64,000 nucleotides of DNA from Haloplanus natans DSM 17983 (lineage in GTDB: Archaea; Halobacteriota; Halobacteria; Halobacteriales; Haloferacaceae), in NCBI RefSeq assembly GCF_000427685.1, contig NZ_KE386573.1, positions 3,146,938-3,210,937 of the forward strand, read 5' to 3'. Positions within the stretch are counted from its first letter, which is position 1, and each line of letters opens with the position of its first letter. A model generated the notes under the pieces. That model was not told where the DNA came from, did no database searches, and was given only the letters and a program-made list of their open reading frames with translations. Shown piece after piece: positions 6,490-36,017 of this stretch. A program made the position numbers and the translations under genes.

Positions 6490-6548
<59 letters not shown>

Positions 6549-6556
6549 GCCCGACG

Positions 6557-8617
<2,061 letters not shown>

Positions 8618-11388: not shown

Positions 11389-12396
11389 ATGGAGAACGCC
11401 AAGCCACGGATCGGGCTGACGATGGGCGATCCGGCCGGGATCGGTCCGGAAGTGACGCTGAAAGCACTCGCCGACGACGGCGTCCGGGACGCGGCCCGGG
11501 TCGTCGTCTACGGCGACTACGATCACCTCACGTCGGTCCGGGATCGGCTCGGACTCGGCGTCGGCCTCCGGCGGATCACGGCCCTCGACGAGGCGGCATA
11601 CGGGGACGCCGTGGACGTGGTCGACTTCGACAACGTCGGGACGTTCGAGTACGGCGACCTGCGAGCGGCGAACGGCCGCGTGAGTCTGGCCTACGTCGAT
11701 CGGAGCCTCGATCACGCCATCGATGGACGCCTCGACGGGCTCTGTAACGCCCCGATCCACAAGGAGGCGATCAACCTCGCGGGCAGCGAGTACGCGGGCC
11801 ACACGGCCATGATGGCCGACCGAACCGACACCGAGCGCTACACGGCGTTGCTCACCGACGGGGAGATCAACGTCACGCACGTGAGCCTCCACATCCCACT
11901 GTCGGAGGCCGTCGAGCGCATCACGACCGAGAACGTGTTGGACACCCTCCGAACCACCCACGAGGCGCTTCCGGAGGTCGGCGTCGAGGACCCCTCGCTC
12001 GGCGTCGTCGGGGTCAACCCCCACGCCGGCGACGGCGGCGTGATCGGCTCGCTCGACGACGAGGCGGTCGCGCCGGCGGTCGAACGGGCACGCGACGAGG
12101 GGATCGACGCCCAGGGGCCGTTCCCGCCCGACAGCGCGTTCAACAGGGCGCTCGACGACCACTACGACTGTATGGTGGCGATGTATCACGACCAAGGCCA
12201 CATCCCCCTGTTCGTCAACAGCCACGTCGACGGCGGCGGCGTCGGCGCGACGGTACTCATCCTCGGGTTCCCGTTCGTGCGCGCCACGACGCTGCACGGG
12301 ACCGCCTACGACATCGCCGGCGAGGGAATCGCCGCCCCCGACAGCATGATCACCGGCATCACGCTCGCGGCGGACGCCGTGCGCCAGCGCGCATGA
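11389..12396 (+). CDS. PdxA-family 4-phospho-hydroxyacid dehydrogenase
   Basis: This 335-residue protein belongs to the PdxA family (NAD-dependent 4-hydroxythreonine-4-phosphate dehydrogenase and the PdxA2 four-carbon acid enzymes). The divalent-metal histidines are visible in EYAGHTAMMADRT, GVNPHAGDGG and MYHDQGHIPLF, and the start GLTMGDPAGIGPEV and CNAPIHKEAI are family signatures. Haloarchaea have no deoxyxylulose-dependent B6 route, so a PdxA2-like catabolic role with the adjacent FGGY kinase fits better: oxidation of a phosphorylated C4 acid with decarboxylation to a triose phosphate. The ATG at 11389 follows an AT-rich promoter region. Confidence 0.85.
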   Translation: MENAKPRIGLTMGDPAGIGPEVTLKALADDGVRDAARVVVYGDYDHLTSVRDRLGLGVGLRRITALDEAAYGDAVDVVDFDNVGTFEYGDLRAANGRVSLAYVDRSLDHAIDGRLDGLCNAPIHKEAINLAGSEYAGHTAMMADRTDTERYTALLTDGEINVTHVSLHIPLSEAVERITTENVLDTLRTTHEALPEVGVEDPSLGVVGVNPHAGDGGVIGSLDDEAVAPAVERARDEGIDAQGPFPPDSAFNRALDDHYDCMVAMYHDQGHIPLFVNSHVDGGGVGATVLILGFPFVRATTLHGTAYDIAGEGIAAPDSMITGITLAADAVRQRA

Positions 12397-12412
12397 CGGG
12401 AGCGTCCCGACG

Positions 12413-18955: not shown

Positions 18956-20584
18956 TTAGTCCCGTCTGTCGCCGAATTCTTCCGTCATTTGCTCTTCGTT
19001 GATCTCGATATCGTCGACCGGGCGATCGCGGATTTCTTCTTTCAATTTCGGGTTGGGGCGGTCGCCAGGATCACGGCCGCCGGACCCACTGTCACCGCTG
19101 AAGTATTTGATTCCGAATAGCGCTGCGAGACTCCCGATGATAGCTGAGACGACGCTGTTCGCCAACCCATCCGGAAGGTCGCCCCCGGAACCACCAGACT
19201 GAGTGGCGATTGGCGTGGCAGTCGGCGTGGCGGTCGGAGTCGCACGGGGTGTAGAATCGTCGCCCTCGTTGCGGGAGTCGGGGGTTCTCGTCCGCGTGGG
19301 TTCCGGCGTTCGGGTGCGAGTTTCAGGGGTTTGGGTGTCCGTGGACGGCACCCCAGGTGGTCCCGGTGGCTCCTGTGCGGGTTCCTCGCCACCTCCCGTC
19401 AATCGCAGCAATTTAGCCTGTTGCGCATCCTCCCAATTTTCCGTTGCGATGACGATATCGTTGTCTACGAGAGTCGGTGACGCCTCGAGGAGATCACCCT
19501 CGTCACGGTCGCCTTCGGTCGTGAACTGCCAGAGAATATCGCCTGTGGAAGCGTCCATCGCAGTGAGACACGTTCTATCGATAGCTCCAGCTAACACGAC
19601 TCCATCGGCGTACGTGACCGACTGGAGGACCTGCCCGGGTTGTTCGGTCGACCAGAGTAAGTCGCCATCTACCGGGTCGAGTGCGTATACGAAATTGTCA
19701 TTGCCGCCGACAAAGACCGTGTCGTCCGCGACTGTCGGTGCAGCGTACGCCTCCGAATCGATCGGATACGACCAGTCGATATCGCCGTCATCACGGTCGA
19801 ACGCGTATACTGTGTTATCCAACCCGCCGGCGAAGACGCGTGTGTCGGTGACGGCGGGTGCACCGTCGACACCATCCTCGGTTTCAGGACTCGTGGCCTC
19901 GGCCCACTCGAGGTCACCTGTGTTGGCATCCCATGCGACGAGTCCGTAGTCGGAATCGCCGACGTAGACGGTTCCATCGACGACAGTCGGTGTCTCCGGC
20001 CGACCCATGTCCCGACGCCAGATCTCGTCGCCATCCGCGGCATCCAAACAAATGAGCTCGTCGGAACCGATGTAGACTCTCCCTTCGACGACTGCTGGGG
20101 CCCTGGGGCCGATTGCATCTCCCGTATCGAATTCCCACTCCAGTTCACCGGAGTCCGCATCGAGACAGTACAGCCATCCATCGTTACTACCGGCGTAGAC
20201 GTAGCCGTCAACGACGGCAGGCGGACTCACAGCTATGTCACCAGTGTCGAACACCCACTCTTCATCCCCCGTACTGACATCGTACGAACGAATCGTCTCA
20301 TCCCTGTTACCGAGGTAAATTGAGCCATTGGTGATGACTGGCGGAGTGCCTGCATCGTCATCGAGCAACGTCGTCCACCTCGCAGCGACATCAGTCGTCG
20401 GAGCGCTCTCACCGCCAGCGTGGCCGGTGTTGTACTGATCGTACCCCAACATCGGGCAGTCGGTGTGTGAGGTAGCCGCAACTGGTGTTGAAGACGTACG
20501 CACGCCGACTGCTGAGGCGAGACCAGTCCCAGCCACGGTTGCTAACCACGAGCGACGGGAAAATCGACCGCCTCCAGCCACCAT
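18956..20584 (-). CDS. PQQ-like beta-propeller protein with C-terminal transmembrane anchor
   Basis: This 542-residue protein has a Tat-type signal (FSRRSWLATVAGTGLASAVG). An eight-bladed PQQ/BamB propeller (~45-420) follows, with repeats such as VYAGSNDGWLYCLDADSGELEWEFDTG. Then come a Pro/Thr-rich stalk (TPTATPTATPIATQ), one membrane helix (LANSVVSAIIGSLAALFGIKYF, ~485-506) and a charged cytosolic tail (KLKEEIRDRPVDDIEINEEQM). A propeller outside, one helix and a tail inside suggest a sensor or receptor linking the exterior to the island's cytosolic proteins; this is inference. The tail has DDIEIN but not the full tail seen in the neighbours. Confidence 0.82.
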   Translation of the reverse strand: MVAGGGRFSRRSWLATVAGTGLASAVGVRTSSTPVAATSHTDCPMLGYDQYNTGHAGGESAPTTDVAARWTTLLDDDAGTPPVITNGSIYLGNRDETIRSYDVSTGDEEWVFDTGDIAVSPPAVVDGYVYAGSNDGWLYCLDADSGELEWEFDTGDAIGPRAPAVVEGRVYIGSDELICLDAADGDEIWRRDMGRPETPTVVDGTVYVGDSDYGLVAWDANTGDLEWAEATSPETEDGVDGAPAVTDTRVFAGGLDNTVYAFDRDDGDIDWSYPIDSEAYAAPTVADDTVFVGGNDNFVYALDPVDGDLLWSTEQPGQVLQSVTYADGVVLAGAIDRTCLTAMDASTGDILWQFTTEGDRDEGDLLEASPTLVDNDIVIATENWEDAQQAKLLRLTGGGEEPAQEPPGPPGVPSTDTQTPETRTRTPEPTRTRTPDSRNEGDDSTPRATPTATPTATPIATQSGGSGGDLPDGLANSVVSAIIGSLAALFGIKYFSGDSGSGGRDPGDRPNPKLKEEIRDRPVDDIEINEEQMTEEFGDRRD

Positions 20585-20761: not shown

Positions 20762-21913
20762 TCAGAACTCATCGTCGTTCGGCCGTCGTGAGTTGATATC
20801 CTCAGCCGTCCGTTGATTGTCTCGGAGGGATTCGACTGGGAAGTCGGCAGCCTCCTCATCCCGACTGCTGTCGGAAATCGAACGTTCGCTTTGGTGTGTG
20901 GACAGCATCTCCTCCGCACGAATTCGCTCGACGGCTATTTCTGCGGCGTCGCGGATGCCGTCCTCGACCGCCTCGTCCGCGACGATCTCTTCGAGTGTCG
21001 GCAGAGCAGTCTCCTCACCGAGGTGTCCCAGTGCGTGTATGCATTCCCGTCGGTTGTCAGTGGAGTCGTCGGTAGCTTGCTCGGTGAACTCCCGAACCAG
21101 AATTGGGATCAGATCCGGGTGAGTTGCCTTCAGAGACTCGACAGCGTCCGGAGACTCAGAAAGTAACTGACGAAACCCGTCCTTAGCATGATGCCGGAAA
21201 ACGTCTTTTTCGTGCTCTAACATGGTAGACAGATGGTCCAGAAGCACTTCCCGATTGGTGTCTCGGGTTACTGCTTTCTCGATTATTCGACCAACAAAGA
21301 TCATCAGCATGCCGAGATTGTCGTCAGTCTCGATTTGAGTCAACAGTCGGTCGAGATACGGTTCGATCACCTCGAAATCTTCTTCGATTACGCTGCAAAT
21401 GCACGTCTCTGCCCGATCCCGAACCAGATCGTTTTCGTGCTCTAAAGCCCGTATTAGGGAGTCCAGAATTTGCTCGTATTCCGACGGGCGGTTATACGCC
21501 ATCAACGTATTAGCCGCTAATTCCTGTATCTCGGTATCGTCGTCGTATAACAGAGTCACGATAGTTGGAAGACCGTCGGCTAATTCGGGAGAATCGTTCA
21601 ACTGATTCAAAACGGTAAGGCCTACCCTCCGGCAGAGTGAATTCGGTTCTTCGATAAGATCGAGAAGCCCCGGGATCGCCGGTCGGACCCAAGTGGGTTC
21701 GCTCTCAGCGATCGCCCCCAACGCCAGAGCTGCAGTAAGTCGTTCTGTTTGGTCTCCGTCATCGAGGCGGTCTACGAAACCGGGAATTGCCCCGCGAAAC
21801 TCCTTCGGGTTCTCATTAATTCGGTCTAATATATTTCGAACTCCCTCAGGCGTTCCCGGGTTTCTGCCCTCTCCGTCGTGATCTGAGTGTTTATCAGGAT
21901 TACGGTCAACCAT
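20762..21913 (-). CDS. HEAT-repeat protein with shared RTAEDIN tail
   Basis: This 383-residue protein is built of HEAT-like helix pairs, e.g. ERLTAALALGAIAESEPTWVRPAIPGLLDLI, LADGLPTIVTLLYDDDTEIQELAANTL, and ECIHALGHLGEETALPTLEEIV. A polar linker (~340-365) leads to the terminal tail QRTAEDINSRRPNDDEF. The same tail closes the proteins at 22160, 23072, 24697 and 32379, which have unrelated bodies. Codons in the tail differ between copies, so conservation is at the protein level. I infer an adaptor whose tail is a docking signal; no enzymatic motif is visible. Confidence 0.78.
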   Translation of the reverse strand: MVDRNPDKHSDHDGEGRNPGTPEGVRNILDRINENPKEFRGAIPGFVDRLDDGDQTERLTAALALGAIAESEPTWVRPAIPGLLDLIEEPNSLCRRVGLTVLNQLNDSPELADGLPTIVTLLYDDDTEIQELAANTLMAYNRPSEYEQILDSLIRALEHENDLVRDRAETCICSVIEEDFEVIEPYLDRLLTQIETDDNLGMLMIFVGRIIEKAVTRDTNREVLLDHLSTMLEHEKDVFRHHAKDGFRQLLSESPDAVESLKATHPDLIPILVREFTEQATDDSTDNRRECIHALGHLGEETALPTLEEIVADEAVEDGIRDAAEIAVERIRAEEMLSTHQSERSISDSSRDEEAADFPVESLRDNQRTAEDINSRRPNDDEF

Positions 21914-22159: not shown

Positions 22160-23017
22160 TCAATTCTCGTCGTCGGGGCGTCGTGTGTTGATGTCGTCCG
22201 CACTCCGTCTCGGTCGCTGGATCGTCTCGAGTTCCGGTTGTGGAGTGGATCGGTCGTTGGAATCAGAATTAGAATTGGAATCGGAGGTCTCTTGATGGCT
22301 GTTTTCGTGAGTCTGCCAATACTCAAACGTGAACAGTGTAACGCACGCCAGAGCGAGAACAACAATTCCGACTTGTCGAATCGCTCCAAGCCGATGCGCG
22401 GCCATTCCAGAGACCAACCCGATAATTGGAGAGACGAAAAAGAGAGTACACAAGATGAGCGCGCAGTTTCGGGTAGAGAACTTCCACCCCTCACGGATTC
22501 CTAATTTACTAAATATCGCCACACTGGAGTACAAAAACAGCAGCAGGAATATCCCCTCGGTCGCACTGCGACTCTTAGCGGTGTCGGTGAATGGACTGAT
22601 CTGAATATATACATCGATTGGGTCTGCTATCGACAGATGGAAATGGATAATAGCAAATATCGACGCCAAAATTACTATCGATGAAATAATATCTATCCGA
22701 CTCATATCGAAATATCCAAAGATTTTGTCAGATATCATATAAAAATTAACAAATATAAATGCACCAGCAAGCAAGGCACTTGCTAGTTGGAAGATCGCGT
22801 GGAGAAGCGCAGGAATCGGATCACCATATAGGAGATAGGTAGTCGGAGATTGAACAATTGGGACTCGTTGTAGGGACGACCAATATGTTAGAGCACTAAT
22901 TAGAGCGAGATCCGATAGGAGGCTCAGTATAAAGCTATCATCGACGTGTGAACGTGTCCTCAGAACTGAACTAAGGGGGAGTGCAGTATATGCGAAAACT
23001 GCCAAGGCGGTATTCAT
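22160..23017 (-). CDS. seven-helix membrane protein with shared tail
   Basis: This 285-residue protein has about seven hydrophobic helices (first ~1-20, last ~215-234: QVGIVVLALACVTLFTFEYW). A Ser/Asn-rich linker (SDSNSNSDSNDRSTPQ) follows, then the terminal tail RPRRSADDINTRRPDDEN. No transporter or enzyme family is recognised. DNA here is visibly AT-rich with codon use unlike the flanking chromosome, a sign of transfer. Its tail links it to the island's HEAT and TPR proteins and would sit on the same side as their soluble tails if the C-terminus is cytosolic. Confidence 0.72.
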   Translation of the reverse strand: MNTALAVFAYTALPLSSVLRTRSHVDDSFILSLLSDLALISALTYWSSLQRVPIVQSPTTYLLYGDPIPALLHAIFQLASALLAGAFIFVNFYMISDKIFGYFDMSRIDIISSIVILASIFAIIHFHLSIADPIDVYIQISPFTDTAKSRSATEGIFLLLFLYSSVAIFSKLGIREGWKFSTRNCALILCTLFFVSPIIGLVSGMAAHRLGAIRQVGIVVLALACVTLFTFEYWQTHENSHQETSDSNSNSDSNDRSTPQPELETIQRPRRSADDINTRRPDDEN

Positions 23018-23071: not shown

Positions 23072-23308
23072 TCAAATTCTATCATTCTTCGGGCGTCGAG
23101 TATTGATATCGACCACGGATCTCGATTGCAGGGTCGTCTCAAGTTTCAGTTGAGAGTTATCCGATCGAACGGCGCCTGGCTTCCCACTTGAATGGTCTTC
23201 AGGATCTTCTTTGACAGCAATAAGAAAGTCACGAATCCGTGTGATGGACGGATGAGGAATCGAAACCACCGATATCGGCATCAGCGCAATCCTCACAGCC
23301 CAGACCAT
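23072..23308 (-). CDS. 78-residue protein with shared tail (possibly truncated)
   Basis: A short frame, MVWAVRIALMPISVVSIPHP, then a polar stretch, ends SRSVVDINTRRPKNDRI, clearly the island tail in a divergent form (VV for AE). The hydrophobic N-terminus could be one weak helix. It lies directly upstream of the seven-helix gene, same strand, ~54 bp away. It may be a genuine small tail carrier or the leftover C-terminus of a deleted membrane protein; the short hydrophobic start favours a remnant. Confidence 0.5.
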   Translation of the reverse strand: MVWAVRIALMPISVVSIPHPSITRIRDFLIAVKEDPEDHSSGKPGAVRSDNSQLKLETTLQSRSVVDINTRRPKNDRI

Positions 23309-23390
23309 ACACCCGAAATCCAGCTACTGACAAATATATGTTACGTAGGTGGGAAAACGAATAAAAAGATGTCTGACAAACTTATGTCTG

Positions 23391-24551
23391 ATGACAGGGG
23401 TTGATCTGGAACGGGTCGAGGATAACCCGGTTCGATACTGGCGGGCCCAACAACGTGAGATCGAGGGTGCACTGGGTGCGTCCGATACCACAACTCGCCA
23501 GTACGGTAGCTATGCGTTCGTCAAAGCTGCCAAGGCGGGGGCAGTCCAAGATCTTCCCTCCTCGTTTGTGCGACTCGCACGGAATCACGTGACTGCGGAG
23601 GATACAGATACGCGTGTTAATGTGATCGGTGGCATCGGTGGGACGCTGATTTTCGCCGACTCGGATACTCGGCGCCGACTGGTGGATCCGTCGTTAGTCA
23701 CGGAATTGGCGTCGGCAGCAACCACAGTCGAACAGGACTTGAGCGAGAACGCCTTGCTGACGCTTTCGGAGGTCGCATTGGAGTGGCCCGACCTCCTAGT
23801 CGACCATCCCGTCACGATCGACACCTGTGTCGAGAAGATGGCGGGATCGGGAAAGCGGGCGACGTATGCGGCGTTATCACTGGCCAACGTCGCGTACCAC
23901 GACCCCGACGCCGTCGCGCCGTACTTCCAGAAGTTCCGGATGTTTATCGATCCTGCCGTCGATGAACGGCAACTGGCGGCTCTCATATACTGTCTCGCAC
24001 AGACCGTTCCGCAACGGACCCTCGACGAAGGGGAGGTCGACGCAGTGATGACAGCAATCGACTACTGCAGTCAGTGTTTGCTCGAAGGCAAAGGGTCCCA
24101 AGCGCTGCGAACACTGGTGATCGAGTCAATGGCGGTGTTGGCTCAGCGATGGCCACGGGCGATCCTCGAAACGCCCGTCACGGAACTCGTCGAAACCGTC
24201 CTGTCCTGGGGCAACTCGAGTGGCCTGAGCGCCGGCGAGACGACACGAGAGGATCAGACACCACTATCGGAGGCCGAGGCCGCGATCAAACTGGCCACCG
24301 CCCTGCCGAAATCAGCCGTCGACCTCGATGGGCAGATGTTGCTGGCGATCGAGGGAGCGACCGAAGACCCAGAAGTCGAGAAGGCTGCCACCAAACTCAG
24401 AAAAAACGTCGGAACGCTCACCGTCGAGAGCATGTTCGAGCGGTTAGTCGTCGAAATCGAACATCTCGATGAGTTCATCTCAGTCGATATCAACAACAGC
24501 AGGAACATCAACTTCAACTCGCCGAACGCGAGCAACGTCTACTACGAGTAG
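23391..24551 (+). CDS. HEAT-like repeat protein with NINF-type tail (paralog of 17727)
   Basis: This 386-residue helical-repeat protein aligns end-to-end with the one at 17727. The alignment of DLERVEDNPVRYWRAQQREI supports the ATG at 23391 rather than a start 14 codons upstream. ARM/HEAT-like helices continue to ~350 (e.g. RATYAALSLANVAYHDPDAVAPYF). The protein ends with ISVDINNSRNINF, then NSPNASNVYYE, a beta-type tail also found at 17727 and 31761. No catalytic motif is evident. It is the only plus-strand gene within an otherwise minus-strand block, so it has its own promoter in the AT-rich DNA just upstream. Confidence 0.72.
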   Translation: MTGVDLERVEDNPVRYWRAQQREIEGALGASDTTTRQYGSYAFVKAAKAGAVQDLPSSFVRLARNHVTAEDTDTRVNVIGGIGGTLIFADSDTRRRLVDPSLVTELASAATTVEQDLSENALLTLSEVALEWPDLLVDHPVTIDTCVEKMAGSGKRATYAALSLANVAYHDPDAVAPYFQKFRMFIDPAVDERQLAALIYCLAQTVPQRTLDEGEVDAVMTAIDYCSQCLLEGKGSQALRTLVIESMAVLAQRWPRAILETPVTELVETVLSWGNSSGLSAGETTREDQTPLSEAEAAIKLATALPKSAVDLDGQMLLAIEGATEDPEVEKAATKLRKNVGTLTVESMFERLVVEIEHLDEFISVDINNSRNINFNSPNASNVYYE

Positions 24552-24696: not shown

Positions 24697-26031
24697 TCAG
24701 AGATCATCATCTGGGCGGCGGTCGGCAATATCTTCAGCGGTTCGCCGCGTATTCTGGATTGGTTCGAACGGAGAGTCGTCGATGCCCTCTTCAAACGTTG
24801 GAACTTCGTCAGACTCAGACTCGGGGTGAACGATGTCATCGAGATCGAACTGCCTGATATGATCCCGCGCTTCACTTTCGTCGAATCCGGAACTCAGTAA
24901 TGCCACGTAGTGTATGTGAGCCCCGCTGTGATTCGAATCACGGTCAATAACCTCCTTGAAGTGAGTTCGGGCTGTGTGGTATTCCCCGAATTTTTCGACC
25001 AATAGACAGGCATAAATATAGTGAGCATCGGTTCGCTCCCAATGGATTTCGAGAGCTTTCTCTAAGTGAGTTCGAACGATATCGTACTCCTCACTTTCCC
25101 TAAATAGCGGGCGAGCGAGGTCTTCGTGTGTCCCAGTGCGCCCCGACTCTACTCGAATGTTCCTATCATAGTATGTTCGGTCGATGGAGAATTCATCAAA
25201 TTCGCACCCCAACGTAAGTGCGTACATATAGTGAGCGTCGGCATTCTCAGGATCGTGATCGATGGCACGCTCTAGATGATCTCGGGCGGATTCGTACGCC
25301 TGTTCAACCTGAATCAGTGTCACTGCATAATGGAGATGTGCGTTAGCATGTCCGGGATCGAGTTGAATTGCCCTCTCGTAGTGAGTCAGGGCAGTTTCCA
25401 AGTCTGCAATCTCGTTGTCCGATAGGAGGCAGGCGTAGTGGTAGTGATATTTGGCATTCTCCGAGTCGTGTTTGATGGCGTTCTCGAACTGGACCCGTGC
25501 CGACTCGGTTTCACCCATCCTCTGGGCTAAGAAGAGCCCATAATTAAAACGGCCGCTGGCGTTCTCTGGATTTATCTCAATGGCTTTCTCGTAGTGGACT
25601 CGTACCTTCTCACCTTCCTGATATTCGTGGAGCAATAAATCCGCATACGAATAATGTGCCTCAGCATTCCAGGGGTTGATTTTAATCACTCGTTCGAAAC
25701 GTTTCCGAAGCCTGTCGGGGCCAGACTTCGCATAAGAAAAAACTGTAATAGAGGCCATAGAGAGGTACATAGCAAAAATGGCATCATCCGGATTGCCCGA
25801 TGAGAGGAACCGTTCTCCAATGGCGGCGGAGATTAAAAAGAGACCGCCGTAGATCACCAGTTGAATGAGTAGGAGCAACACTATGAACAGACCTGTACCT
25901 GTCAGGAGTCTATTTTTGTTAATGTCGTAGCCCAGGACTACGTCTATCGGAAGATGGTACCTCCATATCAAATATCCTGCTATCAGGGAAGTAACAAAAC
26001 CGGGGACAATTCCCAAAATATCCACTGCCAC
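24697..26031 (-). CDS. membrane-anchored TPR protein with shared tail
   Basis: This 444-residue protein has two or three N-terminal hydrophobic helices (VPGFVTSLIAGYLIWRYHLP; GTGLFIVLLLLIQLVIYGGLFLISAA). Eight or so tetratricopeptide repeats follow, with the typical NPENAxAHYxYAxLL/ARxHxExAIExDP pattern (residues ~110-400). It ends NTRRTAEDIADRRPDDDL, the shared island tail with AD replacing NT. The TPR solenoid would lie in the cytosol as a membrane-tethered binding platform. It pairs functionally with the soluble TPR protein at 32379, which carries the same tail. Confidence 0.78.
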   Translation of the reverse strand: MAVDILGIVPGFVTSLIAGYLIWRYHLPIDVVLGYDINKNRLLTGTGLFIVLLLLIQLVIYGGLFLISAAIGERFLSSGNPDDAIFAMYLSMASITVFSYAKSGPDRLRKRFERVIKINPWNAEAHYSYADLLLHEYQEGEKVRVHYEKAIEINPENASGRFNYGLFLAQRMGETESARVQFENAIKHDSENAKYHYHYACLLSDNEIADLETALTHYERAIQLDPGHANAHLHYAVTLIQVEQAYESARDHLERAIDHDPENADAHYMYALTLGCEFDEFSIDRTYYDRNIRVESGRTGTHEDLARPLFRESEEYDIVRTHLEKALEIHWERTDAHYIYACLLVEKFGEYHTARTHFKEVIDRDSNHSGAHIHYVALLSSGFDESEARDHIRQFDLDDIVHPESESDEVPTFEEGIDDSPFEPIQNTRRTAEDIADRRPDDDL

Positions 26032-26106: not shown

Positions 26107-28083
26107 TCAATCGCAATTCCGAAGGTCGAGATAGAGATCGTCGGCACGTTGTCGCCTCATCCCGACCCCTTCGTCCTCTAGGCGTGCGAAGGCACGCGTC
26201 ACGGTGTACTCGTCGAACTCCGTCTCGGCGACGACGGTGTCGACGGAGACGTAGTCAACCACACCGACGTACTGCTCGCGAATCGTCTCGACGCAGTTGC
26301 TGGTTACCTCACTGCGCGTCTGGAACGAGAACAGGGTCGCGTTGGCGTCGAGGAGGCGTTCAGTTTCGTCGTAAACGACCGAGCGCTCGTGAAGATCGAC
26401 CAGAACCAAGCCAACCTGTCGACTGAACGAGACGGCGTTCCCCCGGGCGACGGCAGTTTCGACCGCATCCGTCCACCCGGTCGGTGACGCAACGGCCAAG
26501 AGATGGGGCGTATCTTCGCCTTCCGCCCTCCGGACGACATCGTTGACCACTTCGAGGAGATCCGCCTGGGTTGCCGGGCGGTCGTCGCCGCCGTACCGGG
26601 CGAACGTTTCGAGATGGGGATGCACCCAGAGTTCGAGGACGAGTCGACGACGAGTGGAGAGCGAGAGTCGTCCGGACTCGCCGAGGACGAACCGCGATCG
26701 CCGGCCGAGGGGGTACTGACCGAGAACCGCATCCACCTCGTCGGGATCCTCACGATGCTCCGAGAGGAGTTGCCGCATCGTCTGCCGATCGTCCGTCCGA
26801 GAGTGGTGGTCACGCCAATAGGTGGAGTCGGCAGTGAACGTATTGCCTCCAGGGAGAGCGATCTCCGGACTCTCGTGGACTGCCGTTTCGAACCGGCTGG
26901 AGTAATCGAATTCGGCGATTCGCGCTTCGGTCGCGTACACCGTCTCGGTCGTCTCGCCCTCGCGATCCGGTAACTCTCCGCGTTCGAGCGCCGATTGGTC
27001 GGCCTGGAGTTCCTCGCGTGTGGCTTCGAGTTCCGCGCGTTCGGCCCGGAGTTCAGACACCTGCGCCTCGATTTCGGCTTTTTGCTCACGAAGTTGTTCC
27101 AGTTGGTCGGCGAGCAACTGTTCGTACTGGTCGTCGACGTCGCCGTCCGAAATCGTGGTTTCCAACTCGTCGATGGTGCCCTCCAGCGACGAGAGTTTCT
27201 CGCGATGTGTATCGATCCGGTCGCGTAGCGACTCTTGATGCTCCTGCTGGCGTTCGAGTAGGGTATTGACGCGTTCGAGGAGTGTGTCGATTCGCTGTGA
27301 ATCGACTCCACTACCGGAGTCGAACGTGAGTCGATGGAGTTCGTCCGTCAGTTCACGGCGCTCGTCGCGGATACTCTGGTGAAGCGACTGTGAGAGTTCG
27401 TCCAGCGAATCTTCGACGACAGCGGCCAGTTCGTCGGTTATCGTAGCCCGCTGATTAGCGGCCTCGGCAGCTTCGAGGACGGCGTCTTCCATCTCGTCGG
27501 TGACGTTTGGCAGGCCGTTGTACCGCATGTACAGGCCGACTGCCTCCTGGAGGCGATCCAATCGCTCTTTGGTCAACTCTTCGACCGCCGCCATCTGTGC
27601 CTCATCGAGTTCGGAGTGGGTTCCAGTCAGCGCTTCGTTGAGAGCGTTGAGTTGTGGAGCCACCTCCTCGCGGATGAGATCGTACAGTTTCCCATCCTGA
27701 CTGGCGATTCGCCGCTGGAGCGTCTCGCTGTCGGCGTCGTATACACTGTACTGCCGATAGCCGTCCAGTTCCAACATTTTCTCCAACACGCTATCCGGAT
27801 ACTGGGCGGCGATGGTCCCACTGGCACCCTGATCCGCGTAGTCCGCCGCCCCGAGCACGAGGCGCGCCTTGTCTATCACGAGAGTGAGTTCGTCGCAGAG
27901 GTCCTTGTCTGGAAGTTCCCCGCTCCGATACGCATCTCGGACGTTCTCCCGACACTCGAGGAGGGTCGTATGTTCCTCACGTCGGGACGGCCCCTTCGAG
28001 GACCGCTCCCAGTTCTTGATACCGTCGTTGATGATCAGCTCCGCCGTTCGTCGACACCGGCCCAAGTTGCCGAACTCGCTCAT
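26107..28083 (-). CDS. large coiled-coil protein with C-terminal winged-helix-like domain
   Basis: This 658-residue protein is helical at the N-terminus. A long coiled coil follows (~220-375), rich in heptads such as QYEQLLADQLEQLREQKAEIEAQVSELRAERAELE, then an alpha/beta region (~400-575, TPHLLAVASPTGWTDAVETAV...VGLVLVDLHERSVVYD). It ends with a winged-helix-like segment (VSVDTVVAETEFDEYTVTRAFARLEDEGVGMRRQ). Its start overlaps the stop of the upstream gene as TAATG, so the two are coupled. Function is not recognised. A DNA- or protein-binding role on a filamentous scaffold is possible. Confidence 0.7.
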   Translation of the reverse strand: MSEFGNLGRCRRTAELIINDGIKNWERSSKGPSRREEHTTLLECRENVRDAYRSGELPDKDLCDELTLVIDKARLVLGAADYADQGASGTIAAQYPDSVLEKMLELDGYRQYSVYDADSETLQRRIASQDGKLYDLIREEVAPQLNALNEALTGTHSELDEAQMAAVEELTKERLDRLQEAVGLYMRYNGLPNVTDEMEDAVLEAAEAANQRATITDELAAVVEDSLDELSQSLHQSIRDERRELTDELHRLTFDSGSGVDSQRIDTLLERVNTLLERQQEHQESLRDRIDTHREKLSSLEGTIDELETTISDGDVDDQYEQLLADQLEQLREQKAEIEAQVSELRAERAELEATREELQADQSALERGELPDREGETTETVYATEARIAEFDYSSRFETAVHESPEIALPGGNTFTADSTYWRDHHSRTDDRQTMRQLLSEHREDPDEVDAVLGQYPLGRRSRFVLGESGRLSLSTRRRLVLELWVHPHLETFARYGGDDRPATQADLLEVVNDVVRRAEGEDTPHLLAVASPTGWTDAVETAVARGNAVSFSRQVGLVLVDLHERSVVYDETERLLDANATLFSFQTRSEVTSNCVETIREQYVGVVDYVSVDTVVAETEFDEYTVTRAFARLEDEGVGMRRQRADDLYLDLRNCD

Positions 28084-28709
28084 TACAGGAATCCCTCCAT
28101 TTCGTCTTTGAGATAGTCCCTGACGACTCGCGGTGCCTCACCATAACCGGAGGTGTAGACCGTGACCGTTATTGATCCATCCGGATTGTCGGTAGTCCGA
28201 TACCAACATTGGGCTGTGCCTTTGCGTGTGCTGAGCTTGTACACGTTCTTTCCGGGATTGGCGACTGCCGCATCCCGTTTGTTCATGAGACTCTCGAACA
28301 ACCACTCGATCCGATCGGCGTCCACGTCCGTCTCGATATCGAATTCGAGGTCCGTCTCGGAAGGTGTCGTATCCACGTCTTCTAACCGCTTCACCTCCAA
28401 ATCCTCGACGTCGTCGACTTTGGCCGACAGATCCTCGTACAGGCCGGGAAGGTCGTCAGTCTTCACCGACCGTACGAACCCGCGAAGTGGCGACACGTCG
28501 GTTCCATCGCGGTTGTTGAGTAGATATTCGACTCGCTTCCGTTCGGCTTCGTCCGTGTAATCGAGGACGATGAGGTACGTCTCACGGTCATCATCCTCGG
28601 TACTCGATCCGTGGTTGGAGTTGGTAGCAGTCCCAGACGAGGGGTCTTCACCCTCTGAATTCTCCGGTACGTGCCGATCATCTCGAAGCAACTGGTCACC
28701 CTCATCCAT
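28083..28709 (-). CDS. hypothetical alpha/beta protein, coupled to the coiled-coil gene
   Basis: This 208-residue protein has an acidic, disordered N-terminus (~1-45). Two similar alpha/beta units follow: TYLIVLDYTDEAERKRVEYLLNNRD and EFDIETDVDADRIEWLFESLMNKRD, each strand followed by an R-x-E-x-L helix. It looks like an internal duplication. The start is set at ATG 28709 because a TATA-like box at about 28750-28758 places transcription initiation downstream of the alternative ATG at 28736. It overlaps the next gene by one base and must be cotranscribed. Family unknown. Confidence 0.65.
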   Translation of the reverse strand: MDEGDQLLRDDRHVPENSEGEDPSSGTATNSNHGSSTEDDDRETYLIVLDYTDEAERKRVEYLLNNRDGTDVSPLRGFVRSVKTDDLPGLYEDLSAKVDDVEDLEVKRLEDVDTTPSETDLEFDIETDVDADRIEWLFESLMNKRDAAVANPGKNVYKLSTRKGTAQCWYRTTDNPDGSITVTVYTSGYGEAPRVVRDYLKDEMEGFL

Positions 28710-28747
28710 TCCGATCACCGAAGGACATGCACGCATCTTCCGTCCCG

Positions 28748-28760: not shown

Positions 28761-28931
28761 TGCGTGGGGATTGATCTACAACACACTGTGTTGTTTCTAG
28801 GAGACGACTTGCGATCAGATTGTTGCCGAATAGAGATGCTGATTAAGTTGGTCCTTTATAGAGACTAGATATAGTGTAGGAATTTGCCCAAACATTTATG
28901 TTGCCACAATCCATCGGTGTAGTTGCGACGG

Positions 28932-29231
28932 ATGATACCAACTCAACTGACCCAACTGGTGGTCGCCGTGGGCGGGTTGAACCTGCTCGTGGGTGCCGCG
29001 TTCACCGCCGCGGTGTACACGGCACTCGAGCGTGTGCCGACCCTCGCAGGCGTCTTCGGCTTCCTCCTCGCCGCCGCAGTGGTGGCGACGGAAGCCCACC
29101 TCGGCGAACTGCTCCTCTCGGTCACCGTGGCCGAGATGAAACTCCTCGTGATCGCCGGCGTGCTCGGCGCGGCGCTGGGCATTGCCTCGTTCACGACGCT
29201 GTTCGAACCAACGATCGACGGAGGACGATAG
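28932..29231 (+). CDS. small polytopic membrane protein, first gene of the ATPase-side operon
   Basis: This 99-residue protein has three hydrophobic stretches: LVVAVGGLNLLVGAAFTAAVYTAL, LAGVFGFLLAAAVVATEAHLGELLLS and LLVIAGVLGAALGIASFTTLF. The ATG at 28932 is preferred over TTG at 28923 because a TATA-like ACATTTATG lies ~35 bp upstream. The next gene, a coiled-coil protein, begins 3 bp after the stop. The pair is therefore a small membrane protein with a helical soluble partner. No family is recognised. Confidence 0.72.
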   Translation: MIPTQLTQLVVAVGGLNLLVGAAFTAAVYTALERVPTLAGVFGFLLAAAVVATEAHLGELLLSVTVAEMKLLVIAGVLGAALGIASFTTLFEPTIDGGR

Positions 29232-29233
29232 AT

Positions 29234-29848
29234 ATGCACGTTCGAGAAATCATCAACAAGAAGCTCGGTTACGACGATGGAAGCAACCTGCTCGACCCGG
29301 ACTGCTACCCGCCGATGCAGCTCGAAGAGGACCGGTTCGACACGGAGATCGAACAGGAACGGGCGAAAGAACGGGCTGAGAAACTCAAGGCCGAGAAAGA
29401 GGACCTCAAAGAACAGGGAGTCGGGGCGCCGCCGAGCGAAAAGGAAGCGCTCGCTACCGAAATCGAGTCCATCGACATGATCCTCCAGCAGGAGGATGCG
29501 GCGTACCAGGAAGCCACTGACGAACTGGCCCTGCTTCGCGTGGTCGACGGAATCCGACGGCGGATGAACACCGGCACGAAAAACTACGAGGAGGCGCTTT
29601 CGGAGACCAGCCAAGCCGACATCAAAAAGGAAGTCCGAGAGGTCGCCCGGGATCTGGACCGAGACGCCGGCAAGATCAATTCGATCCTCAAGGAACTGAA
29701 AATCTCCACGCGGATCACGACCTCCTCCAAGAGCAGCAACGGGAAGAGCAAGTACGTCGAGGAGATGGAGCGGCGCGAGGACGAACGGGAGTACAAGACC
29801 TCCAGTACCGAGGGTGCCCGGAACAGCCGAGACCGCAGCCGTAGCTAA
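29234..29848 (+). CDS. charged helical/coiled-coil protein, candidate ATPase substrate
   Basis: This 204-residue, almost entirely helical, highly charged protein has an N-terminal REIINKKLGYDDGSNLLDP. A heptad-rich block follows (DTEIEQERAKERAEKLKAEKE, ~38-58), then two further helices (DEAYQEATDELALLRVVDGI; IKKEVREVARDLDRDAGKINSILKEL). The tail is basic/serine-rich (RNSRDRSRS). Size and helical makeup recall ESCRT-III-like proteins, which Vps4 ATPases remodel, but I see no conserved ESCRT-III sequence motif; that parallel is inference from its neighbour at 30030. Start ATG lies 3 bp after the membrane-protein gene. Confidence 0.68.
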   Translation: MHVREIINKKLGYDDGSNLLDPDCYPPMQLEEDRFDTEIEQERAKERAEKLKAEKEDLKEQGVGAPPSEKEALATEIESIDMILQQEDAAYQEATDELALLRVVDGIRRRMNTGTKNYEEALSETSQADIKKEVREVARDLDRDAGKINSILKELKISTRITTSSKSSNGKSKYVEEMERREDEREYKTSSTEGARNSRDRSRS

Positions 29849-30029: not shown

Positions 30030-31307
30030 ATGTACGATCCGAACTCACGTGACCCGGACGATCTCCACAGGGAGTACAAGTCACGGCTCGATGCAGCCGA
30101 AACGGCCCTCGATGACGGGAAACCGAAACGAGCGGCGGACCACTATCGAGCCGCCGCAGATGCCAGAGAAGAACTCGGGACTATCCAAGGCGTGGACTAC
30201 TCGTCACGCGTCCAAGAACTCCGCCAGATCGCCGAGCGTGCTGAGAGAGGTGATCGAGTCGAACGGGTCGACAACGGTGGAAGTAGCGGAGGCGATGACA
30301 GCAGTCCGAATGACGGTAGTAGCGAGGACAGCGGCGGTGCTGGCGATGGTCCCTCCGAATTTCGTGCGGTGATCGAGAGCTTCATCGTCGATACCGACAC
30401 CGAGTGGGAGGACATCGGCGGATTAGAAGACACGAAACAGGAACTCAGGCAGGCCTTGGCACTCGGCGCGATAGGTAATAAACCGCCAGCCGTGCGGAGT
30501 TCACAGACCGGACTGCTGTTCGGTCCGCCGGGGACGGGGAAGACGATGCTCGCAAAAGCGGTCGCCAACGAGACGAATGCGACCTTTTTCAACGTGAAGT
30601 TGGGGTCACTCCTCAGTAAGTGGTACGGGCAGTCGAGTCAGAAGATCATCTCGCTGTTCGATGTCGCGAAAGAACTCGCTCCGTCGGTGATCTTCCTCGA
30701 CGAGATCGACGCCCTGACTACAAGTCGGGGGGGAGGGGGCGACGACGCCTCCCGCCGTGTGTTGAACACGATCCTCTCCGAATTGAGCGCGCTCAAGGAG
30801 ACTGACTCGTTCACGTACGTGCTCGCGAACACGAACACCCCGTGGGATCTGGACTTCGCAATCAGACGGCGGTTCTCACAACGGACCCTCGTCCCGCTTC
30901 CGGACGTGGACGCCTGCACTCAGATTACGCGAGTGCATACGACTAAAGGCGGTGTCTCCTTCGAGGGCGAACCATCGGCTCATGTGCCGAGAAACCTACG
31001 CACCGACATCACCGGCACGATGACGATCCCGGAAGCCATCGGGCAGGCCTGCCATCAGCGCGGATACACTGGGAGCGACATCGACAGCCTGACCGAACGG
31101 ATGACCACCAAGATGGTGCACCGAGTGAATCCGGACCTGGAAGAGCGAGCTGACGAAGACCTCTCCGCCCTCGTCGATGAATCGATCGACATAGCTCCGA
31201 TCCAACCCGCAGAGTCACGCGCCGCGTTCGAAGCCGTCAGTCCGTCGCTGTCTGATGGGGATATCGCACGGTTCCGCGACTGGAACGACCAGTACGGCAC
31301 CGGGTGA
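30030..31307 (+). CDS. Vps4-clade AAA ATPase with N-terminal MIT-like domain
   Basis: This is a 425-residue protein. Residues ~10-70 are a three-helix bundle ([31 protein letters not shown]) resembling MIT/TPR domains. A Gly/Ser/Asp linker follows (~75-110), then one AAA module: [18 protein letters not shown], Walker A GPPGTGKT, pore region [12 protein letters not shown], Walker B VIFLDEID. The sensor/Arg-finger region [24 protein letters not shown] is diagnostic of the Vps4/katanin group. It should form hexamers that pull helical or filament-forming partners through the pore. Haloarchaea divide with FtsZ and normally lack CdvC, so this is an accessory gene. It lies ~180 bp downstream of the helical protein at 29234. 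Confidence 0.85.
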
Positions 31308-31362
31308 CAGGGTCTGGAACAACTGGTGAGTAGAGTCCGAGTGACGCCGCGGTTTGGATAGG

Positions 31363-31659
31363 ATGGCCATCGCACAACCGTTCACCCCCTACACCCCAGA
31401 GAAAATAGCCGAGCGGATCGGTGTGTACGAACTCGGTCGACCCGCACCGACACCAACCGGTTACAAGGTGGTATACATCGGATCGGGGCGGCTCGCCGCC
31501 AGACTCGGAGAGCATGCACGGAGCGATAAACACTGGTGTGTCTATCGCGTCGAGATAACGAATTCCACTCGCCGTGCCCGTCAACGCGAACGAGTTCACC
31601 AGCGCCGGTTTCTGAACCGGGAAGGAACACTCCCGTTCTACAACGATCGCATCGGATGA
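31363..31659 (+). CDS. GIY-YIG-like small protein
   Basis: This 98-residue protein has the GIY-YIG layout: RIGVYELGR (GIY strand), YKVVYIGSGRLAARLGEH (YIG strand plus helix), YRVEITNSTRRARQRERVHQRRFLNREG (basic helix with the expected glutamate) and LPFYNDRIG. The residues of the nuclease site, Y, Y, R and E, all appear present, so nicking activity is possible, though many haloarchaeal members have no assigned role. It lies between the AAA ATPase and the zinc-ribbon gene on the same strand. Confidence 0.7.
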   Translation: MAIAQPFTPYTPEKIAERIGVYELGRPAPTPTGYKVVYIGSGRLAARLGEHARSDKHWCVYRVEITNSTRRARQRERVHQRRFLNREGTLPFYNDRIG

Positions 31660-31760: not shown

Positions 31761-32240
31761 ATGACGAACTCCCGACGAGAGAATCAGACCTTGGAGGTGT
31801 TCAGTGAGGCCCGAGAGATTATATTTCATCCCGGCTGCGGCCCTCGAGAGGTGAGGAGCGCTCTCGAAGACGCAGTCGAGGCGCTCGAACGACACGACAT
31901 GGATCCCACGCCGATCCAACATCACCTCGATAAGCACGAGGAGTTGACTGGTGACAGCGGATTCCCCCCTGACTCACGGAAGGACTGTCTCGATACCCTC
32001 AGACGGGTACACGGGACTCTGCGTGACTCGTTCGATGTCACTGCGACTCTCGACTGTGTTCGATGCGATTCGGAAATCCCGGCTTCCGCGGATCGAGATC
32101 TCTGTTCGGAGTGTCGTCAGGCTGGTGGGGATACTGAGAAGACCGACAGCGGCGCGAAAACCGTCGAAAAGACGGAGATATCCATTCAGGGGACGAACAT
32201 AAACTTCGACAGCGACAATAGCACGAATGAATACCACTGA
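31761..32240 (+). CDS. zinc-ribbon protein with NINF-type C-terminal tail
   Basis: This 159-residue protein has an N-terminal helical domain (~10-95; REVRSALEDAVEALERHDMDPTPIQHHLDKHEEL). One four-cysteine zinc ribbon follows (CVRCDSEIPASADRDLCSEC, ~105-125), then a polar linker and the tail ISIQGTNINFDSDNSTNEYH. The tail matches those of the HEAT-like proteins at 17727 and 23391. The arrangement (binding domain, ribbon, tail) suggests an adaptor. No known family is recognised. Confidence 0.7.
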   Translation: MTNSRRENQTLEVFSEAREIIFHPGCGPREVRSALEDAVEALERHDMDPTPIQHHLDKHEELTGDSGFPPDSRKDCLDTLRRVHGTLRDSFDVTATLDCVRCDSEIPASADRDLCSECRQAGGDTEKTDSGAKTVEKTEISIQGTNINFDSDNSTNEYH

Positions 32241-32378: not shown

Positions 32379-33965
32379 CTACGAGTCGTCATTCGGGCGC
32401 CGTGTGTTGATATCCTCGGCAGTTCGACGCGTGCGCTCGATGGATTCGAACGAGACGGAGTCGTCCTTGGACGCGAACTGAGTGTCCCACGGGTGGGCGT
32501 CGACGAATGCCTCGTAACTGTCGTACGCTGTCGCCGTCTCGTGCCCGATCGCACGGGCTTTCGAAAAGTAGCGCTCCGCATCGTCGTGACGACCGCTCGC
32601 CGCGAGGAACGTCGCGTAATCGAACACGTGGTCGGGGTGGTCCGGACAGAGCTCTACCGCACGACTGTAGTGATGTTCAGCCTCGTCGATGTTATCTTCG
32701 GCAGCGAGCACACTGGCCAGACTGTGATGCGCTGCGCCGTACTCGGGAGCTACTGACACCGCCTGACGCAACACCGCCTCCGCTTTTGCCGCTCGGTCAC
32801 GCTGGTGTAGGAACCATCCATAACCGTTGTACGGGACTGCGCTACCTGAGGCATGGTCAACAGCTCGTCGATAGTGTTGTTCAGCCTGGCTGTCCTCACC
32901 CTCCTCCGCGAGTAGATGTGCAAGATTGACATGCGCTGGCAGATACTCCGGGTCCTCGTCGATGGCCGCTCGGAACTGCTGTTTAGCTTTCTCAGTTCTG
33001 TTCCGGTCTCGCAGAAAATTCGCATAGTTGAAATATCCGTCCACGTACTCGGGGTCAACGTCGATCGCTCGTTCGTACTGCGTCGCTGCCTCGGTGAAGC
33101 GCTCTCGATTGCTGAGGAAGATTCCGTAGTTCGAGTGTGGTTCGGGAAGGGAGTCCCCGTGCTCGATGGCCATTTTGTAATGGGACTCGACGTCACCGTC
33201 CCCGTTCTGGTCGTCTAAAAATAGTGCGTAGTTGTTATGCGCTGTCGCAAGTTCTGGGTCGATGTCGAGAGCCCGCTGATAGTGGGTTTCTGCGTCGTCT
33301 ACTTCCCCTTGGTCCCAAAGAATGGTGGCATAATTATTGTGGGCTTGGGCATAGTCGTCACCGACTTCGATAGCTTTTTTTAAGTTCTCCCGCGCTTCGT
33401 CGAGCCGACCCTGCTCTTTGAGCAGGAGTCCGTAATTGCGGTATTCGAACTCGTTGCCCTCGCCGTGTTCCACAGCGCGTTCGTAATAGCGCTCTGCGTT
33501 TGCAACGTCACCCCTCCGCACCAGCAAGTTCGCATAATTATTATACGCCTTCTCGACAGGACCACGCTCTATTGCCTCTTTGTAGTGATGTGCAGCCCTC
33601 GAATATTCTCCGCGATCGTCGAGGAAATTTGCATAGTTGTAGTGCGTCTCGGGGGCAATGTCCGGCGGCGATCGAGAATCACTATACTCCAAGGCTTTTT
33701 CGAAATGGTTCTCGACGTCCTCGTATTGGCCGAGTCTGCGTAATATGAGCGCATAGATGGCATGTGCGTGGCCCATCTGCGGGTCGGATTCCAGGGCATT
33801 TTCGAGTGCGCGCTTCGCTTCTGTATACTTCCCGTCCTCGAATTTATCCATCCCACGGAGTGCGTATTCGCTCGCCCGTGTCTCATCGCTCGCCGTCCGT
33901 GGCCGAGTACCGAGGGTGTCCTCCAGTCGCTCTTGGATATGTTGTAGTTTGTCTGCCAGATTCAT
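32379..33965 (-). CDS. soluble TPR protein with shared tail
   Basis: This 528-residue solenoid carries about twelve tetratricopeptide repeats (~25-470), e.g. AYNNYANLLVRRGDVANAERYYERAVEHG and AHNNYALFLDDQNGDGDVESHYKMAIEHG. The very regular AHxNYAxxL pattern is unusual. A short linker (SKDDSVSFESIE) leads to the terminal tail RTRRTAEDINTRRPNDDS, the clearest copy of the island tail. It faces the zinc-ribbon gene convergently and is the last gene of the island before the VapBC/IS/CRISPR-relic zone. Confidence 0.82.
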   Translation of the reverse strand: MNLADKLQHIQERLEDTLGTRPRTASDETRASEYALRGMDKFEDGKYTEAKRALENALESDPQMGHAHAIYALILRRLGQYEDVENHFEKALEYSDSRSPPDIAPETHYNYANFLDDRGEYSRAAHHYKEAIERGPVEKAYNNYANLLVRRGDVANAERYYERAVEHGEGNEFEYRNYGLLLKEQGRLDEARENLKKAIEVGDDYAQAHNNYATILWDQGEVDDAETHYQRALDIDPELATAHNNYALFLDDQNGDGDVESHYKMAIEHGDSLPEPHSNYGIFLSNRERFTEAATQYERAIDVDPEYVDGYFNYANFLRDRNRTEKAKQQFRAAIDEDPEYLPAHVNLAHLLAEEGEDSQAEQHYRRAVDHASGSAVPYNGYGWFLHQRDRAAKAEAVLRQAVSVAPEYGAAHHSLASVLAAEDNIDEAEHHYSRAVELCPDHPDHVFDYATFLAASGRHDDAERYFSKARAIGHETATAYDSYEAFVDAHPWDTQFASKDDSVSFESIERTRRTAEDINTRRPNDDS

Positions 33966-34222: not shown

Positions 34223-34624
34223 TCAGCGCCAGACGGTGGTTTCGGCGGCGAACTCCTCGTCGTTCGTGACGATCGCCTCAGTTCCCCGCACTCGGTGGTT
34301 CGCGATGAGCAGGGCATCGTGCAGGCTGTGGTGGCCGATGAGGCTCCCGTACACCGCGAGATCTTGCTCGTCGGTCGGGGCGACCTGTACCGGCCCGTCG
34401 TTCACGAGCCCGCGCAGCACCGCGTTCGGCGTCGTGTCCACCTCGACGCCGGCGATCGTCTCCTTGTTGACCGCCGTCCAGATGGCTTCGCTCACCGCCA
34501 CGCTCGGCGCTTCGATCACGTCGACGCCCTGCTCGGCCCGCTCGAAGACCTCGTCCGCGGCTGGCGGGAGCTGGTCGACGAGGTACCGGGCCATCGCCAC
34601 CCCGTCGACGGTGTAACGGGTCAC
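34223..34624 (-). CDS. PIN-domain toxin (VapC-type)
   Basis: This 133-residue PIN-domain ribonuclease has metal-binding acidic residues in YTVDGVAMARYLVD (first Asp), PSVAVSEAIW (Glu), SLHDALLIAN (Asp) and IVTNDEEF (last Asp). The GTG start at 34624 overlaps the TGA of the antitoxin as GTGA, so I prefer it to a GTG three codons upstream. Toxins of this type cleave RNA in the cytosol and are held inactive by the adjacent AbrB-type antitoxin. Confidence 0.85.
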   Translation of the reverse strand: MTRYTVDGVAMARYLVDQLPPAADEVFERAEQGVDVIEAPSVAVSEAIWTAVNKETIAGVEVDTTPNAVLRGLVNDGPVQVAPTDEQDLAVYGSLIGHHSLHDALLIANHRVRGTEAIVTNDEEFAAETTVWR

Positions 34625-34899
34625 GGCTGCCACTCCGTCCGGCGCCTCTCGCGGATCTCGGCTTCCATCTCCTCGGCCATCTCCTCGCGCTTCTCGTCGG
34701 GGACGTCGTCGTCGACGAGCATCCCGCGCCCCGCCGACTGCGTCGCCTTTCTGACCCGAATGCCGTCCTCGGCCTTCTGCCAGAGCAGTTCGTCGCCCTC
34801 CTCAAGACCGAACTCCTCGCGGAGTTCCTTCGGAATGGTGACCTGACCCTTCCGGGTGATGCGGGTCGTCTCGCCTTCGGTGTCGTTCTCAGTACTCAT
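34621..34899 (-). CDS. AbrB/SpoVT-family antitoxin (VapB-type)
   Basis: This 92-residue swapped-hairpin DNA-binding protein contains TTRITRKGQVTIPKELREEFGLEEGDELLWQKAEDGIRVRKA. The rest is the helical tail (VPDEKREEMAEEMEAEIRERRRTEW) that should neutralise VapC. It overlaps vapC by four bases and is autoregulated, judging from the palindromic operator 5 bp upstream of its ATG. Confidence 0.9.
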   Translation of the reverse strand: MSTENDTEGETTRITRKGQVTIPKELREEFGLEEGDELLWQKAEDGIRVRKATQSAGRGMLVDDDVPDEKREEMAEEMEAEIRERRRTEWQP

Positions 34900-35077: not shown

Positions 35078-36017
35078 GGCTGTGTTGAATCACTAGACGG
35101 CGTCGGGATGGGTCGCTAAATCAAAGGAGTTGAAGCGGAGAGATTCGGTTGCCTATGACACAAATCTCCCGCTTCACTGGTGAGATTGTGCCGATTGCCC
35201 AAGTTGTTACCGGTGATGGAGACGAATCCGCCGCCCCGGAAGGTGGCGGCGGATTCGCCGACTATGCCCTCGTTTCTCTCCACTGTCTGCGGATTTACCT
35301 TGACACGTCTTACCGAATGACGATTGACCTGCTCAAAGAGATGCCACAAATAACCGGGGAGATCGGCCTCAGCGCGGCCGATCTCCCCTCACCATCCACG
35401 TTGTGTAAAGCGTTCGACCGGATCAGTATGAGCGTCTGCCGAGTGCTGCTGCGCCAATCGGCGCAGCTGCATGACCCCTCGAAACACGGCGCGATCGACG
35501 CGACATTCTACGAACGCTCAGCTGCGAGCCGCCACTACTGCCAGCGAATAAGCTACCGCGTCCAGAAGCTGAAGGTCACGAAACTCGTCGATACAGAGTC
35601 TCAAGCCATCCTTGACGTTCACTGCTCGACGACTCGGGACGGAAGCGACGCAGATCTCGCCGAGCAGATCGCCCGCCGAAACGCGGGCGATCTGCGGTCT
35701 CTTGCCGCCGATAAAGGCTATGACAAGCAGTCGCTCCGCGAATCCCTTCGTGACCTCGGGATTCGCCCGCTCATCAAACATCGCATCTTCGCACCGTATG
35801 ATCACGCGCACAACGCCAGAATCGACGAACAGCGCTACAATCAGCGCTCGATGACCGAGACCGTGAACTCGGCTGTGAAGCGCTCGCTCGGCTTCGCCGT
35901 GCGAGCGCGTTCCTGGTTCCGTGAGTTCCGAGAAATCGCGCTGATGTGTGTCGTCTATAACATCAAGCGAGCTGTGAAACAGTGAATTCCACCGCCATAT
36001 AGCGATTCAACACAGCC
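35078..36017 (+). mobile_element. complete IS5-family (ISH1-group-like) insertion sequence
   Basis: The 940-bp element is bounded by terminal inverted repeats GGCTGTGTTGAATCACT and its complement with one mismatch (16 of 17), flanked by the 8-bp duplication GTTTCAAT. It holds one intact transposase gene. It landed inside the conserved GTTTCAATC end of a CRISPR-like repeat, so removing the IS and one duplication restores an uninterrupted repeat. Nearly perfect ends suggest a recent insertion. Confidence 0.92.
35155..35985 (+). CDS. IS5-family transposase
   Basis: This 276-residue DDE transposase has catalytic residues in HGAIDATFYERS (first Asp), LAADKGYDKQSLRESL (second Asp) and RSMTETVNSAVKRSLG (Glu), followed by the DDE_Tnp_1-type ending AVRARSWFREFREIALMCVVYNIKR. 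I use the ATG at 35155 (MTQISRFTGEIVPIAQV), two codons inside a longer TTG frame. The frame is intact, so the element may still be mobile. Confidence 0.93.
   Translation: MTQISRFTGEIVPIAQVVTGDGDESAAPEGGGGFADYALVSLHCLRIYLDTSYRMTIDLLKEMPQITGEIGLSAADLPSPSTLCKAFDRISMSVCRVLLRQSAQLHDPSKHGAIDATFYERSAASRHYCQRISYRVQKLKVTKLVDTESQAILDVHCSTTRDGSDADLAEQIARRNAGDLRSLAADKGYDKQSLRESLRDLGIRPLIKHRIFAPYDHAHNARIDEQRYNQRSMTETVNSAVKRSLGFAVRARSWFREFREIALMCVVYNIKRAVKQ

Follow-up and report, generated by a model that had tools for sequence, protein, structure and literature searches.

A 2024 survey of archaeal ESCRT systems described loci that combine Vps4 and ESCRT-III with arCOG09748, a family laid out as helical, coiled-coil, globular and winged-helix parts, and arCOG08177, in which a Cas2-like domain is followed by a TBP fold; the Main clade of these systems takes in Halobacteriales, and Halo_FHA loci were also described (PMC10936438). 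The earlier note on the DNA analyzed here, a 64,000-nucleotide stretch of the Haloplanus natans DSM 17983 genome (the window), treated a haloarchaeon as an unexpected place for a Vps4-type ATPase; this premise does not hold, because Vps4/ESCRT-III systems are already listed in Halobacteriales (PMC10936438) and two genes of the window, encoding proteins of 217 and 658 residues, fit their signature. An ESCRT-type machine in haloarchaea is thus of an already known kind; the new part is a group of several unrelated scaffold proteins that end in one common tail. The ATPase and its nearest neighbors are as follows.

26107–28083, minus strand: 658-aa protein, arCOG09748-like by context; by eye, helical, coiled-coil and globular parts and a winged-helix-like C-terminus
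28083–28736, minus strand: 217-aa two-domain protein, arCOG08177-like by context; homologues mostly near a Vps4 gene
28923–29231, plus strand: small membrane protein, ~102 aa; 40% identity (E 5e-17) to a 92-aa protein in the same place in locus L117
29234–29848, plus strand: ESCRT-III-like hairpin protein, 204 aa, the presumed Vps4 substrate (AF2 hairpin; hhalign to proteins upstream of Vps4)
30030–31307, plus strand: Vps4-type AAA ATPase, 425 aa (ATG ORF, Pfam AAA, tree, predicted N-terminal helices)
30054–30245, plus strand: MIT-like N-terminal domain of the ATPase, residues 9–72 (AF2 helices; hhalign to haloarchaeal Vps4-like N-termini)
31354–31659, plus strand: ~100-aa protein 3' of the ATPase, conserved in the Halorientalis salina locus (L009), with a GIY-YIG-like motif by eye (GVYELG...VVYIG) and sub-threshold library matches only (DUF7508, PADLOC PDC-S14)

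The likeness to the Main clade (PMC10936438) lies in the Vps4-type ATPase, the hairpin protein encoded upstream of it, and the 217-aa and 658-aa proteins, which fit the arCOG08177 and arCOG09748 layouts. We infer that the locus is a Main clade system, taking the clade name from gene content and the tree and matching the arCOG families by their described layout; comparison of the 217-aa family with solved structures gave no Cas2 match, so that a Cas2-like identity did not find confirmation there. Unlike Main clade systems, the island has no kinase or phosphatase gene that we noticed and carries extra tail-bearing TPR, HEAT and membrane proteins; unlike methanogen-side loci, which have two hairpin proteins, it has one. 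A second haloarchaeal set, HALO2 (L115, L116, L117 and L119), shares the arrangement in which the 217/658 pair is divergent from the genes for the small membrane protein, hairpin protein and ATPase, and its ATPases have a homologous N-domain; however, the HALO2 ATPase sits on a separate long branch, and L117 also has a PP2C phosphatase gene. HALO2 loci are possibly the survey's Halo_FHA type.

Homologues of the 217-aa, 658-aa, small membrane and hairpin proteins are encoded at Vps4 loci elsewhere in the Halobacteriota. Among 393 genomes of this phylum, the 217-aa profile finds matches in 36 and the ATPase profile (E <= 1e-60) in 29; both are found in 22, against a chance expectation of ~2.7, and 17 of the 22 have the two matches on the same contig, within 25 kb of each other. 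Gene maps show that these loci repeatedly combine Vps4 with one or two ~200-aa hairpin proteins and a 217-like protein, and that most of them also have a 658-like protein. Matches to the 658-aa profile occur in other Vps4 loci and are strongest in haloarchaea; the 658-aa protein itself is 32% identical (E 2e-75) to its counterpart in genome G103 (L018:12657-14726), whose gene adjoins a 217-like gene ~20 kb from the G103 ATPase.

The AAA ATPase proposed at 30030–31307 is real: a 425-codon ATG ORF has exactly these coordinates, and its catalytic motifs are intact, namely Walker A (GPPGTGKT, residues 165–172), Walker B (FLDEID, 222–227) and the arginine-finger region (RRRF). Both protein strings cited previously are present, one at residues 196–206 and the other from residue 269. 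The protein consists of an MIT-like three-helix domain (9–72), an acidic/Gly-Ser linker (~80–110), an AAA core (~120–300), a small domain and a C-terminal helix. It has a single AAA domain (Pfam AAA, residues 162–289, E 2e-37) and a helical N-domain, whereas Cdc48/p97 has two AAA domains per chain; its pore loop, SKWYGQS, is Vps4-like. Eukaryotic Vps4, human VPS4B included, has the same elements (a helical N-domain, a linker, a single AAA domain, KWxG in pore loop 1, ASRR in pore loop 2, and a C-terminal helix), but the N-domain of the window ATPase is too divergent for direct recognition, and the eukaryotic sorting context is absent here. Vps4_C (PF09336), which matches an archaeal relative (L110, E 3.7e-5) and is not among the matches listed for the window ATPase, was dropped as a Vps4 marker because haloarchaeal Cdc48 also matches it.

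Does the N-terminus deserve the name MIT? The earlier note made its MIT-like assignment depend on residues 1–75 folding as a three-helix bundle, and AF2 predicts three helices there (9–28, 32–53 and 58–72; block pLDDT 70–87, from only two input sequences). The window N-terminus has no direct match to Pfam MIT, and its hhalign comparison to the VPS4 MIT domain stays at noise level; it aligns with the N-termini of HALO2 ATPases (probability 93.6, E 2.1e-7), and three of those four N-termini have a weak Pfam MIT match (E 0.0013 at best). In the model, helix lengths suit MIT better than a 34-residue TPR, an argument from size. The three predicted helices do not contradict the assignment, the link to MIT through HALO2 is indirect, and MIT-like is a fair term. 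The AAA part of the same AF2 model, with its two-sequence input, is poor (mean pLDDT 46), and a Foldseek/VIA comparison covered the AAA core alone and is uninformative on the N-domain.

The tree of the AAA domain points to Vps4, as had been claimed. In a careful maximum-likelihood IQ-TREE run (57 rows), the five sequences of the window group and 19 archaeal homologues, encoded at loci of the ESCRT type, form a clade with 100/100 support, whose sister is human and yeast VPS4 together with fidgetin (98/96); Cdc48 D1 and D2 and VAT fall outside this grouping, CdvC branches apart, and the HALO2 sequences, on a long branch, are not part of the archaeal clade. Proteasomal or Cdc48-type placement, which would have spoken against the proposal, was not seen in a tree whose references exclude katanin, PAN and FtsH and comprise VPS4B, yeast Vps4, two CdvC, two fidgetin-like proteins, VAT and yeast Cdc48 from PDB alignments. 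The reference rows carry the PDB letters, except that of VPS4B, which differs from the PDB chain by one residue. We consider the ATPase to be probably an archaeal Vps4. Genome G212 (L118) has two Vps4-like ATPases within 7 kb (5913–7059 and 11528–12649), of which the first seems to be broken into two ORFs and the second falls together with a second ATPase of L124 and a protein from a Clostridiales MAG. The MAG protein (L010:10001-10801), with a single AAA domain, has a long branch and joins archaeal Vps4-like ATPases with 96/95 support, a placement that could reflect transfer, mis-binning or long-branch attraction.

If the ATPase is a Vps4, what would it act upon? The coiled-coil protein proposed as its partner exists as an ORF at 29234–29848 (plus strand), and AF2 predicts a long hairpin (27–62/67–110, pLDDT ~90) followed by small C-terminal helices. 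By hhalign, it is related to the HALO2 hairpin proteins upstream of Vps4 (E 6.6e-8) and to one methanogen-side hairpin family (E 2.3e-5), with which it shares a GVGA...EI motif; a sequence search of the PDB with the latter family found no ESCRT-III. The model scores Z 7.1–7.4 (VIA-align) against CHMP1B, CHMP2A-CHMP3, PspA and Vipp1, values that unrelated coiled coils equal, so that the predicted layout fits ESCRT-III but the fold comparison alone is no proof. A long-hairpin layout of the ESCRT-III/PspA kind, together with homologues encoded upstream of archaeal Vps4 genes, makes the partnership plausible. The Vps4-type ATPase would assemble as a ring, dock through its MIT-like bundle onto the hairpin protein encoded just upstream, and use ATP to extract this protein from membrane-bound polymers.

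The island also encodes proteins that share C-terminal tails of two types:

32379–33965, minus strand: TPR protein, type-1 tail RTRRTAEDINTRRPNDDS
24697–26031, minus strand: TPR protein with N-terminal hydrophobic segments, type-1 tail NTRRTAEDIADRRPDDDL
20762–21913, minus strand: HEAT-repeat protein, type-1 tail NQRTAEDINSRRPNDDEF
22160–23017, minus strand: multi-pass membrane protein (by eye), type-1 tail PRRSADDINTRRPDDEN
23072–23308, minus strand: 78-aa ORF, variant type-1 tail SVVDINTRRPKNDRI
18956–20584, minus strand: PQQ beta-propeller with a C-terminal membrane segment and a degenerate acidic tail, EEFGDRRD
31761–32240, plus strand: 159-aa protein with CxxC pairs, type-2 tail NINFDSDNSTNEYH, conserved in L009
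17727–18845, minus strand: type-2 tail carrier
23349–24551, plus strand: type-2 tail carrier

The type-1 tail, R[TS]A[ED]DIxxRRPx[DE], is common to four of these proteins (two TPR, one HEAT and one membrane), which end in RTAEDINSRRPNDDEF (HEAT), SADDINTRRPDDEN (membrane), RTAEDIADRRPDDDL and RTAEDINTRRPNDDS (both TPR); an Ig/PKD membrane protein of L009 ends in a variant, EEINERRPDE. When the four genes are compared pairwise over the tail, 19 codon pairs are identical, 35 differ synonymously and 18 differ non-synonymously; with synonymous differences outnumbering non-synonymous ones, conservation therefore appears to act on the peptide rather than on the DNA. The strict pattern has eight matches in this genome, four of which are the island tails; across 60 genomes of the family, it has a few background matches each, none terminal among the minority whose flanks were read, and this strict form leaves room for tail variants elsewhere. 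For the TPR, HEAT and membrane proteins, the best reading is a putative role as scaffolds or cargo adaptors that a shared docking peptide would link to the system; their tails would dock them to the ESCRT-type machinery. A bolder proposal, tentative and rather unlikely, is that the tail (RTAEDINxRRPxDD) is an encoded sorting tag which, bound by the MIT-like domain of Vps4 or by another core component, might recruit unrelated scaffold and membrane proteins.

Type-2 tails (NSRNINFNSPNASNVYYE, NINFDSDNSTNEYH) are C-termini that are rich in Asn and beta-strand-like. Of their carriers, two are paralogues (29% identity), one with a weak Adaptin_N match (E 0.0012), and both carrier types have relatives in L009. 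In the L009 counterpart of the 159-aa protein (L009:11739-12398), the Asn-rich motif is repeated (NLNSDNSTNVHV...NINSNNSTNVDI), which points to a short beta-solenoid or a self-assembling segment.

The locus was described as an accessory island, and this is borne out: GC content is 49–62% over ~20 kb (~17–37 kb of the window), compared with 64–72% over most of the remainder, and no other sampled genome of the family has the ATPase gene. Halorientalis salina (L009) has the only close relative of the ATPase (72–73% identity) that the GTDB contig collection yielded, and the neighbors are conserved there as well; a 44% homologue occurs in three genomes of another family, the layout of N-domain and linker is conserved, and at E <= 1e-50 the ATPase is absent from the other sampled genomes of the order. 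The island was probably acquired horizontally. A tRNA-Gln gene lies close by; it was considered as an att site, but its sequence has no second copy within the window. An overlapping gene pair (34223–34899, minus strand) encodes a MazE-type antitoxin (E 6e-14) and a 136-aa partner that resembles a PIN-type toxin by eye and has no Pfam match at E 0.01. The window also has a gene for a 278-aa DDE transposase (35149–35985, plus strand); an ORF of the same length with an identical C-terminus (L016:3435-4271, minus strand) lies ~8 kb from the Vps4 homologue of G172, a pairing that hints at a route by which such islands move.

Could such an island serve in conflict with viruses, the ATPase and the repeat proteins answering infection? 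The setting is suggestive (low-GC accessory DNA adjoining tRNA-Gln, a transposase and a MazE-type antitoxin gene), as are the patchy distribution of the ATPase and weak PADLOC matches. Yet the PADLOC matches of the ATPase (IetA, at residues 155–313, and TRIP13) span the generic AAA core alone, no effector domain was found, IetS is not among the matches of the neighbors scanned, and homologous systems consist of the same ESCRT-type parts and have been reported as ESCRT (PMC10936438). The defense machine suggested in the earlier note thus finds no specific support, and we regard a defensive role as unlikely. A search for viral relatives, made with the ATPase, the hairpin protein and one of the TPR proteins that carry a tail, found none.

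A second possibility is a back-up division machine. Related Vps4/ESCRT-III proteins drive division in Sulfolobales (PMC7617429), and CdvC/Vps4 of these archaea is likewise a single-AAA ATPase acting on ESCRT-III-like proteins, as we presume for the window ATPase. However, CdvC forms a separate branch in the tree and serves division, whereas the host of the window carries FtsZ-family genes: its genome has seven tubulin/FtsZ-family matches outside the island, two of them strong. An accessory island that is missing from nearly all relatives sampled also makes a poor candidate for this task, and a division role is quite improbable. Least probable of all, and already disfavored, is a role outside ESCRT, as an unfoldase of the Cdc48 or proteasome type that serves protein quality control: CDC48 is the top NCBIfam match (E 2e-48), ahead of CdvC and PAN, and VCP, whose two AAA domains add up, tops the PDB sequence search, but the ATPase has one AAA domain and an MIT-like N-terminus, it is encoded among the partners seen at Vps4 loci, and the tree, which does not include PAN and FtsH, gives starred support to its separation from both domains of archaeal Cdc48.

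The best overall explanation, and a probable one, is thus an archaeal Vps4 at the heart of an accessory membrane-remodeling or sorting system: the ATPase and the hairpin, small membrane, 217-aa and 658-aa proteins would make up an ESCRT-type system, probably acquired horizontally. Because the host cell has FtsZ genes, membrane remodeling or protein sorting into vesicles is its most likely role, rather than division. This would put a Vps4/ESCRT-type machine on accessory DNA of a haloarchaeon, and some haloarchaea are genetically tractable; the tail-sharing set adds candidate adaptors to an archaeal ESCRT-type system. With a defined peptide beside a defined Vps4, cargo choice by non-Asgard archaeal ESCRT systems becomes directly testable; if the sorting-tag proposal were true, the type-1 tail would represent a tag-based cargo system that operates without ubiquitin on an archaeal ESCRT machine.
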